Of a DNA stretch of 37,843 nt, positions 34,446-37,679 are shown in pieces. Source of the DNA: Nitrospirota bacterium (GTDB lineage: Bacteria > Nitrospirota > UBA9217); assembly GCA_029858565.1 (NCBI GenBank), contig JAOUEV010000034.1:1-37843 (forward strand). Direction: 5' to 3'. A program made the position numbers and the translations under genes. How positions within the stretch are numbered: position 1 is the first letter of the stretch; every line of letters begins with the position of its first letter. Under the pieces are notes generated by a model that was not told the origin of the DNA, did not search any database, and saw only the letters and a program-made list of their open reading frames with translations.

Positions 34446-35903
34446 ATGCAGCGCGCCTGTTACATCGGCATCGACCAGGGGAGCAGTTCCACCAAGGCGA
34501 TCGTCGTCGCCAATGACGGGGCCATCCTCTTTCGGGGGAAGCAGGAGCTTTCCCCTGCTTTGCGGGAAGACCATCGGGTCGAGCAGGACCCTGATGAGAT
34601 CCTCGGATCTGTCAGGTCAGCGCTCGATGAAGCGATCGGTCAAGCAAAGAACGCGGGGATGACGGTGCGCGGAGCAGGCCTATCCTGCCAGCGGTCATCG
34701 TGCCTTGCCTGGCATAAAGCGTCAGGAAAACCTCTATCGCCGGTCCTGAGCTGGCGCGATACCCGGGGTGAAGAGCTGGTTAAAGGCCTCGCGCTTCATC
34801 GCGACTATATATGGAAGGCTACGGGCCTTCCGCTCACGCCATATTATTCCGCCTCCAAGATGCGGTGGCTGATTGAGAACCTGCCTGACGCGGACAGTCC
34901 CTCCACGGTCCTCGGAACTTTATCCAGCTTTCTCTGCCAGAAACTGACCAACTCGACCTCGCCCCTGATCGATCACACCAATGGGGCACGCACGCAGCTC
35001 ATGAACATCAGTTCACTGTCCTGGGACAGCGAACTGGCAAAGATCTTCGGGCTTGCTGCCGCGAACCTGCCTGAGATCGTTCCCACTGCTCACAATTTCG
35101 GGGTGATCGAGACCGATGCTGGTCCCATCCCCCTGCTCGCCTGTATGGGAGATCAGCAGGCTGCAATGCTCGGCCTTGGCGTGCTCGAAAGAGATCAAGG
35201 CGGCATCAACTATGGCACCGGCGGGTTCCTGATGGTGAACACCGGCCGGACATTGATCCCCGCCCCCGGGCTCATGGCCTCGGTCCATTACTCAACAGCA
35301 ACCGACAGGCGATATCTTCTGGAAGGAAGCGTGAACGCGGTCGGAGACGCGCTCGAATGGCTCAAGCACAAGTTTCGGATGTTCGACCGCTTTGAGGAGA
35401 TCGATGAACTTTGCAGGAAAGCGGCAAGCGATGTGGTGGCATTCATCGCTTTGAACGGTGTCGGCGCGCCCTACTGGGAACCTGACGCCAAGACCGTCAT
35501 GAACGGCATGACAGCGGAAAGCACGCCCGCAGACATCGTCCGCGCCGCGATCGAAGGGATCACCTTCTTCATGCGGGATATTGACGGGGTGATCAAGGCG
35601 GCAGGCGTCAGCGCGGAACAGTTCACTGTCTCCGGCGGCCTCGCCTCCATCGGATATCTGCTCCAGACCCAGGCTGACATGCTCGGCCAAGACCTTGCAG
35701 TTTCAACAGAGCAAGACGCTTCTGCCCTTGGCGCCGCGTACCTCGCAGGCATGCAGCAGGGAGCCTGGAAGCCCGAAGATATTCAGAAGTTCACGCAGGG
35801 GAAAAGGATCGTACAGGCTGGCCGGAATCCGGGAATCAAGAAGCGCTATCAAAAGTGGACAGAGCTGCACAGGATGGCACGGGAACTGGACAGGACGTTG
35901 TAG
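34446..35903 (+). CDS. FGGY-family carbohydrate kinase
   Basis: This 485-residue kinase phosphorylates a sugar or polyol with ATP. N-terminal CYIGIDQGSSSTKAIV is the FGGY P-loop; GLSCQRSSCLAW and VLSWRDTRG resemble glycerol kinase; the C-terminal ATP-domain motif is FTVSGGLASIGYLLQTQADML. The substrate cannot be assigned; glycerol or xylulose-type are possible. No clear ribosome site precedes the ATG at 34446. The stop codon TAG lies inside the REP that follows. Confidence 0.85.
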   Translation: MQRACYIGIDQGSSSTKAIVVANDGAILFRGKQELSPALREDHRVEQDPDEILGSVRSALDEAIGQAKNAGMTVRGAGLSCQRSSCLAWHKASGKPLSPVLSWRDTRGEELVKGLALHRDYIWKATGLPLTPYYSASKMRWLIENLPDADSPSTVLGTLSSFLCQKLTNSTSPLIDHTNGARTQLMNISSLSWDSELAKIFGLAAANLPEIVPTAHNFGVIETDAGPIPLLACMGDQQAAMLGLGVLERDQGGINYGTGGFLMVNTGRTLIPAPGLMASVHYSTATDRRYLLEGSVNAVGDALEWLKHKFRMFDRFEEIDELCRKAASDVVAFIALNGVGAPYWEPDAKTVMNGMTAESTPADIVRAAIEGITFFMRDIDGVIKAAGVSAEQFTVSGGLASIGYLLQTQADMLGQDLAVSTEQDASALGAAYLAGMQQGAWKPEDIQKFTQGKRIVQAGRNPGIKKRYQKWTELHRMARELDRTL

Positions 35904-35961
35904 GTCGGGTAAAGCACTGCGAAACCCGACAGCCGTTGGGTTCCGCTTCGTTCAACCCGAC
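35900..35961. repeat. REP pair (BIME-like) overlapping the kinase stop codon
   Basis: The first REP, 35900-35930, starts with GTAG and has stem GTCGGGT...ACCCGAC. The second, 35935-35961, is a related hairpin with GTTGGGTT and AACCCGAC arms. The same unit flanks the RayT gene at 36839 and 37457. The GTAG supplies the TAG stop of the kinase. The hairpins may also protect the mRNA end. Confidence 0.88.
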
Positions 35962-35989
35962 ACACCACGAACCCTGCCCTTCTCATTCC

Positions 35990-36027: not shown

Positions 36028-36453
36028 ATGGCCGGCAAAAAACTACGGATCATCTTAGATACGAACGTATTATATGCGGGTCTTTACTCATCCAGGGGAG
36101 CTTCGTTCAAGGTCCTGCGAGCTATTGCGGACGGGAAAATGCGTGGCGTATTATCCACCGCGCTTCTCTTTGAATATGAAGATGTTTTGAAGAGAAACCA
36201 GGAGATACTCAACCTATCGAATCGGGCGATCGAGAAAGTCCTAGGCAATTTGTGCTTCCTGAGCGACCACCAAAAGATCTATTTCTTGTGGCGTCCACGG
36301 CTTTCCGATCCCAAAGATGACCATTTGCTGGAATTGGCTGTTGCCGCAGGAGTAAAATTCGTGGTGACCCACAACACATCGGACTTCAAGGGTTCCGATA
36401 AATTTGGCGTACGAGCGATAACACCCAAAGAGCTATTGGAGGAAATAGTATGA
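36028..36453 (+). CDS. PIN-domain toxin
   Basis: A predicted RNase toxin of the COG1569-type. The 141-residue protein has the acidic PIN residues D11 (IILDTNVLYAG), an acidic helix (FEYEDVL), DPKDDHLLELA and VTHNTSDF. It is the first gene of the pair, with the antitoxin overlapping its stop by four bases (ATGA). The pair is bracketed by REPs and looks more AT-rich than neighbours, suggesting transfer. Confidence 0.85.
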   Translation: MAGKKLRIILDTNVLYAGLYSSRGASFKVLRAIADGKMRGVLSTALLFEYEDVLKRNQEILNLSNRAIEKVLGNLCFLSDHQKIYFLWRPRLSDPKDDHLLELAVAAGVKFVVTHNTSDFKGSDKFGVRAITPKELLEEIV

Positions 36454-36686
36454 GCGCCTTGAGCCTGCGTTTACCCGGATCAATTCATCGTCACATCAGA
36501 GAGATCGCGAAAAAAGAAGGCGTATCCATCAACCAGTTCATTTCATCGGCGGTCGCCGAAAAAATATCCGCGCTGATGACGGAAGACTATCTGGAGAGCC
36601 GGGCAAAGAAAGCGAAAAAAGAAGATTTCAGGAAGATATTGGCAAAGGTCCCGGCTAGAAAGCCGCTGCCGGGGGATGAACTGTAG
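36450..36686 (+). CDS. Ribbon-helix-helix antitoxin
   Basis: The 78-residue protein has an N-terminal beta strand LSLRLPGSIH, then helices HREIAKKEGVS-like and NQFISSAVAEKIS, a HicB/CopG-type RHH fold. The basic tail (RAKKAKKEDF) would bind the PIN toxin. Toxin-first order occurs in this type. It should repress the promoter at 35990-36023. Confidence 0.82.
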   Translation: MSALSLRLPGSIHRHIREIAKKEGVSINQFISSAVAEKISALMTEDYLESRAKKAKKEDFRKILAKVPARKPLPGDEL

Positions 36687-36742
36687 AATTTGCATAGCGG
36701 AAGGCTGCCGATTTGCATAGTTCACTTACGTTTATAATGTAT

Positions 36743-36886
36743 ATGAAAGAACCTGTTATGAAATCTTCCGGCAACGTATTTCTAGATCTGGGTTTCCCCC
36801 CTGAGGAGGCCGCCATCCTCCAGATGCGTTCCGAGTCTGTAGGTCGGGTAGAGCACAGCGAAACCCGACAGATTTTGATACGATGA
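36743..36886 (+). pseudogene. Truncated XRE/HigA-type antitoxin cut by a REP
   Basis: ATG at 36743 opens MKEPVMKSSGNVFLDLGF, the usual N-terminus of HigA-like XRE antitoxins, and continues to RSE. Here codons enter the REP at 36839 and run to a TGA at 36884-36886 (47 residues). The HTH domain is missing and is not seen after the RayT unit. A TATAAT is at 36733-36738, and ATTTGCATAG is repeated at 36688 and 36711, 23 bp apart. No HigB toxin is visible upstream. Confidence 0.65.
36839..36869 (+). repeat. REP sequence upstream of RayT
   Basis: GTAG foot, then stem GTCGGGT...ACCCGAC around a middle part with GAGCACAGCG. It interrupts the XRE remnant. Confidence 0.88.
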
Positions 36887-36911
36887 GCAAGCACACCCTG
36901 AATAAAATACC

Positions 36912-37454
36912 ATGCACTATAAAAGATCACGAGCAAAAGGAGCAACCTTCTTTTTTACGATTGTGACGCATAAACGACAGTCGATCCTCTGTCACGACTG
37001 CAATGTTGCGTTGCTTCGCGAGTCATTTTCGCACGTAATGTCCCGGCATCCTTTTACGATTGATGCATTTGTTCTTCTGCCCGATCATCTACATTGCATT
37101 TGGACTTTGCCGGAAAACGACAATGACTTTTCAAATCGATGGAGGCAAATCAAAGGCCACTTTAGCAGGAATTGTTCTGGTGAGTTCAGGGGAGACGTAA
37201 CGGCCGGTCATAAAAACAGGGGTGAGCAGACTGTTTGGCAGCGCCGCTTTTGGGAACATCAGATCAGGGATGAGACTGACTTTATCAGGCATGTCGAGTA
37301 TACTCACTACAATCCGGTGAAGCACGGCTTGGTCAATTCTCCTGCTGCCTGGCCACATTCAACATTCCGCCGTTACGTTACACAAGGCCTTTATCATGCC
37401 GAATGGGGTGCGGATAAAGAGATAGCTCTCGACCAGAACATTGGGAACGAATAA
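36912..37454 (+). CDS. REP-associated tyrosine transposase (RayT/TnpA-REP)
   Basis: Proteins of this HUH (Y1) family cut and join REP sequences at the GTAG foot. The 180-residue product has the HUH motif H59-L-H61 in LLPDHLHCIW and the catalytic tyrosine region VEYTHYNPVKHGLV (Y130 or Y133). Both are intact. There is no obvious ribosome site, so expression may be low. It lies between the inverted REPs. Confidence 0.92.
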   Translation: MHYKRSRAKGATFFFTIVTHKRQSILCHDCNVALLRESFSHVMSRHPFTIDAFVLLPDHLHCIWTLPENDNDFSNRWRQIKGHFSRNCSGEFRGDVTAGHKNRGEQTVWQRRFWEHQIRDETDFIRHVEYTHYNPVKHGLVNSPAAWPHSTFRRYVTQGLYHAEWGADKEIALDQNIGNE

Positions 37455-37456
37455 GC

Positions 37457-37487
37457 GTCGGGTTTCACTATGCTCTACCCGACCTAC
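37457..37487 (-). repeat. Inverted REP downstream of RayT
   Basis: GTCGGGTTTC...CTACCCGACCTAC; on the minus strand it begins GTAG. It lies two bases after the RayT stop. Confidence 0.88.
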
Positions 37488-37546
37488 AACTGTGGATTAT
37501 GTAACGGTCACAAGCAACTAGCGCAGAAGCACTTGACCATAAGTCG

Positions 37547-37583
37547 GGGAGGTAGAATAAATCTTTCTGCCTCCCTCCTTTTT
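37547..37583 (+). terminator. Probable intrinsic terminator
   Basis: GGGAGGTAGAA (37547-37557) and TTCTGCCTCCC (37565-37575) form an 11-bp stem with one U-G pair and a seven-base loop, followed by TCC and five Ts. It would end transcripts from RayT. Confidence 0.6.
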
Positions 37584-37679
37584 AAACTATCAGCGCCCTG
37601 AAATGTTCCAACCTGCGCGTCCACAGCGTCGCGCCACAGGGCGGCGCGTGACGCGGGCGTTAATCTATAGAGGAACCCT

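Follow-up and report, generated by a model that had tools for sequence, protein, structure and literature searches.

A RAYT unit joined to a truncated HigA-like antitoxin gene beside an integron attC site in a Nitrospirota genome

Chromosomal integrons carry toxin-antitoxin cassettes, as is generally known. RAYT genes with flanking inverted REPs have been described (Nunvar et al. 2010, PMC2817692), and GTAG-REPs located inside genes have also been reported (PMC3733652). Our literature searches found no relevant description linking RAYTs with integrons. The locus analysed here contains a RAYT unit, the 5' part of an antitoxin gene, and an attC site. It is located near the end of a 37,843-nt contig (C82), the whole of which is referred to as the window. 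The contig belongs to a Nitrospirota draft genome (G000) of 3.9 Mb in 144 contigs, with a completeness score of 100%. Proteins were compared across 396 genomes of the phylum, and the whole locus was searched at the DNA level in 99 relatives. The antitoxin DNA was compared with the full-length genes of G001, G002, G003, G006, G011, G032, and G053; G001 is the sole congener compared. No plasmid match to the window DNA was found in a distant DNA search.

The RAYT gene and its REPs

The RAYT (TnpA-REP) gene is located at 36912-37454 on the forward strand and encodes a protein of 180 amino acids. The ORF matched NF047646 (REP_Tyr_transpos) with 196 bits and E = 2e-58, against a cut-off of 80, and it also matched Pfam Y1_Tnp above the cut-off. 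Alignment to the TnpArep structure (PDB 4er8, E = 3e-41) placed H59-L60-H61 and Y130 on the HxH and tyrosine motifs, so the transposase does have the intact HUH and tyrosine motifs that had been read from its sequence. The gene is flanked by a left GTAG-REP (36839-36869, forward strand) and an inverted right GTAG-REP (37457-37487, reverse strand), located by REP scans and REP-REP comparison. The two are 94% complementary over 32 nt, in agreement with the inverted arrangement first proposed. Related RAYTs in the Planctomycetota, Desulfobacteraceae, and cyanobacteria likewise have inverted GTAG palindromes on both sides; therefore, the window RAYT locus is a canonical unit of the form REP-rayt-inverted REP. 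An intrinsic-terminator-like hairpin with a T run follows the unit (37546-37584, forward strand; z = -3.4 as DNA).

REP copies also occur elsewhere in the genome. Four REP-like sites were found in the window versus none in 100 shuffles, and 16 sites were found genome-wide at ≤3 mismatches, with none in the reversed control. The genome REPs differ among themselves, and several are 87-94% alike. The genome has a single complete RAYT of this type, and its remaining Y1_Tnp proteins are distant. The locus resembles the described RAYT/TnpA-REP units (PMC2817692) in having one IS200-like HUH transposase gene, two inverted GTAG-headed REPs, and more REPs dispersed in the genome. However, the REP number is lower (about 16 at ≤3 mismatches), and the left REP is fused to a gene fragment.

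The window REP scan also identified a second inverted REP pair, without a transposase, at about 35900-35965 (from 35897). It is located at the 3' end of an FGGY kinase gene, the TAG stop of which is the TAG of a REP GTAG. In most relatives examined, the kinase ends within one or two codons of the window stop, with TGA. Between this pair and the antitoxin fragment, a PIN toxin gene (36028-36453) and a HicB/RHH-type antitoxin gene (36450-36686) overlap at ATGA on the forward strand (36028-36686). The pair was identified by domain matches and by comparison with G009, where a homologous PIN-RHH pair (75% DNA identity) is followed within a few bases of its stop by an attC.

The truncated antitoxin and its missing toxin

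Upstream of the left REP are the 5' 31 codons (36743-36835, forward strand) of a HigA-like (HTH_37/XRE) antitoxin gene, which share 84-89% DNA identity with the full-length 94-aa genes. They form the first part of a chimeric ORF of 47 codons (36743-36886), which begins with the antitoxin codons (MKEPVMKSSGNVFLDLGFPPEEAAILQMRSE) from the ATG at 36743 and continues in REP sequence to the stop at 36886. The similarity to all seven relatives stops at about 36834-36836, where the REP foot begins, and the junction is within 0-3 nt of the foot (36835/36836). The left REP thus interrupts the XRE frame as predicted; the count of about 33 codons is corrected to 31 from the ATG at 36743. The tetranucleotide AGTC is found just before the left REP, and AGTY is frequent ahead of other REPs of the lineage. 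Because of this recurrence, the breakpoint and the edge of the mobile sequence may be one and the same position.

Full-length homologues of the antitoxin are common. HTH_37 homologues of 94 residues were found in 60 of the 396 phylum genomes at E ≤ 1e-18, and in 14 genomes at 80% identity or above. The full-length homologues tested match HTH_37 (PF13744), and one of them is immediately preceded by a gene with a Gp49 match, which supports the original identification as a HigA-like antitoxin. The doubt that relatives might have no intact homologue is therefore removed, and the cut in the window copy falls precisely at the REP. The HTH occupies residues 36-82 of the full-length protein (HTH_3) and is wholly missing from the window copy. 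The 47-codon ORF has no Pfam match, HTH_37 included, because the HTH_37 domain is truncated; it is a pseudogene fragment. Judged from its sequence, the 47-residue chimera without HTH should have neither DNA binding nor antitoxin action.

The rest of the gene was lost. The 3' 63 codons (32-94) do not resume after the right end of the RAYT unit, and profile and protein searches found no match to them anywhere in the window genome. An intact copy of the antitoxin was not found in this genome either (protein search at E ≤ 1e-18).

The toxin is also absent. Of the seven closest relatives inspected, six have HigB (Gp49) directly upstream of the XRE gene, the one in G032 having an internal gap, whereas higB is missing from this position in both the window and its congener G001. 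In the window, a promoter-like stretch, TTGCAT...TATAAT (36693-36742, forward strand), is located directly ahead of the XRE start, at the place of the relatives' higB. It was recognized by comparing it with the promoters ahead of higB in six relatives and with the higB-less XRE of G001, where a TATAAT-containing stretch resembling the higB promoter is also directly ahead of the antitoxin. We infer homology from this likeness; the stretch is probably the remainder after higB loss, and the antitoxin had probably become an orphan before its truncation. The window genome yielded no cognate higB; the best HigB matches are 31% and 40% identical and stand beside other HTH_37 genes. The search for a matching HigB therefore speaks against a functional toxin-antitoxin pair as the target of insertion. 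With no cognate toxin found in the genome, losing the antitoxin is expected to be harmless. In summary, at the DNA level the XRE part has 84-89% identity with the antitoxins of the relatives' intact HigBA (Gp49-HTH_37) type II modules, but the window copy has neither toxin nor HTH.

The integron context

About 120 bp beyond the RAYT unit is an integron attC (37606-37665, forward strand), with the cassette boundary G|TT at 37659/37660. This context had been overlooked in the original prediction. A repeat at 37602-37662 has many occurrences in the window genome and in relatives, and its anatomy is attC-like, with AAC...GTT ends and an imperfect palindrome. The site scored E = 6.7e-25 with an attC covariance model built from 17 copies, among them the window copy, so that this match exists by construction. 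The model identified about 30 attC-like sites in the genome, one of them in the window. The attC arrays are clustered on contigs C38 and C67; on C26 and C128 the sites are near integron integrase genes. The intI genes on C137 and C128 scored above the curated cut-off, whereas the C26 gene matched as two pieces and scored below it. The cassette from 37660 to the contig end has a 99% copy on C124, which begins exactly at the G|TT point. The C124 copy is preceded by A|TT and has no attC, as if it had been inserted at a secondary site.

Similar arrangements were found in relatives. In G002, higBA is located between two attCs and is a true integron cassette. The window, with its downstream attC, resembles the toxin-antitoxin cassettes of chromosomal integrons, as do the G002 higBA and the G009 PIN-RHH pair placed before an attC. 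However, no second attC was found on the window contig at E ≤ 5, and the searches gave neither an upstream attC or attI nor an upstream intI on this contig. No attC was found near the FGGY kinase of relatives within the flanks examined. As a separate observation, a second attC-like type (AACWAGTCG...CGACCGCTTCGCGGCG...GTT) is located after higBA in G032 and G053, and ahead of the PIN-RHH cassette in G009 (loci L207, L213, and L214).

Origin of the junction and its meaning

The original prediction was a RayT movement into a toxin-antitoxin gene, of a clarity seldom seen. The cut at the REP has been borne out, but a clean and readable insertion has not, since the 3' part is gone and no empty site was found. 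The whole-locus search in 99 relatives recovered XRE genes of full length, but none of these genomes had both flanks of the locus, and no closely related empty site was found. A simple insertion does not account for the locus, because codons 32-94 are absent to the right of the unit and undetected elsewhere in the genome. The locus is better described as an ordinary decayed mobile-gene locus beside an attC than as a clean insertion. Its rarity was also overstated, given the intragenic GTAG-REPs already in the literature (PMC3733652). Like those, the window REP belongs to the GTAG superfamily and is inside a coding frame; unlike those, it belongs to a complete RAYT unit, and the gene has lost its 3' part.

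We prefer the explanation that the unit entered an orphan antitoxin gene with loss of its 3' part (probability roughly 0.55). A higBA pair, which is an integron cassette in relatives, would have lost its toxin and left a promoter-antitoxin remnant. The RAYT unit might then have entered this dispensable gene by single-strand REP cleavage and transfer, and the 3' 63 codons would have been lost during or after the entry. Both the RAYT as the agent and the order of these events are deduced from the present arrangement. Entry is favoured by the position of the junction at the REP foot, the inverted-REP architecture, and the intact catalytic residues. It is also favoured by the homologues in 60 of 396 genomes with none here, the lack of a cognate higB, and the absence of higB from G001 as well. 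Against insertion alone stands the right flank of the unit, which does not continue the antitoxin.

The arrangement in G011 also counts against insertion, since it is compatible with a unit that had long stood next to the gene and a deletion that came later. There, the order is an intact higBA, two REPs, and then a RAYT that is 68% identical to the window RAYT and is cut by the contig end. The order and orientation are the same as in the window, and a degenerate REP begins at the antitoxin stop codon. The RAYT unit could thus have stood downstream of an intact antitoxin in the window lineage, and codons 32-94 could have been removed by a deletion of at least ~190 bp that stopped at the edge of the REP. 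REPs are also found downstream of the intact XRE in G001, and hairpin edges are plausible deletion endpoints. However, when G000 is compared with G011, the proportion of synonymous differences is larger for the RAYT (0.81, 0.68-0.94) than for the XRE (0.45, 0.19-0.68), although the latter covers 31 codons and the intervals touch. This excess speaks against a common history of the two neighbourhoods. Moreover, by eye the linkers between REP and RAYT in the two genomes have no evident similarity, and a deletion endpoint precisely at the REP foot would be required. This alternative is possible but rather unlikely. Entry is favoured, too, by the rejection of a general association of XRE genes with RAYTs: no XRE was found in 80 named RAYT loci, and among the phylum loci examined only G011 has one.

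A REP-REP recombination, homologous or by replication slippage, might instead have brought together an XRE fragment that already had a lone REP and an initially separate REP-rayt-REP-attC segment. The likeness of several genome REPs (87-94%), another REP pair 0.9 kb upstream, and the position of the contig beside rearranging integron DNA are consistent with such an event. Nevertheless, the REPs are only ~31 bp long and imperfect, and relatives show no solitary REP inside the XRE gene, which makes this explanation improbable. A draft assembly artefact at a repeat is most improbable: the contig does end 1 kb further on, within the cassette that has the 99% second copy on C124, but the junction flanks are unlike other REP contexts, the genome REP copies differ mutually, and the genome offers no second XRE copy for mis-joining.

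Entry of the unit into an orphan antitoxin gene, with loss of its 3' part, thus remains the preferred explanation. At this Nitrospirota locus, the junction of a REP with a coding gene is defined to the base. The locus also appears to be a case of antitoxin decay following toxin loss, beside an integron attC. It is conceivable, though doubtful, that the toxin-antitoxin cassettes of integrons are recurrent targets of REP/RAYT units, which would land inside them or directly after them, as in the window and G011, riding with the cassettes and pruning them. An attC-ended segment with an intact RAYT would then be movable by both the integrase and the RAYT. This link between RAYTs and integrons rests here on two loci. 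RAYTs are considered to be mostly vertically inherited; if the link proves to be more general, it would point to a way in which they might pass between genomes.
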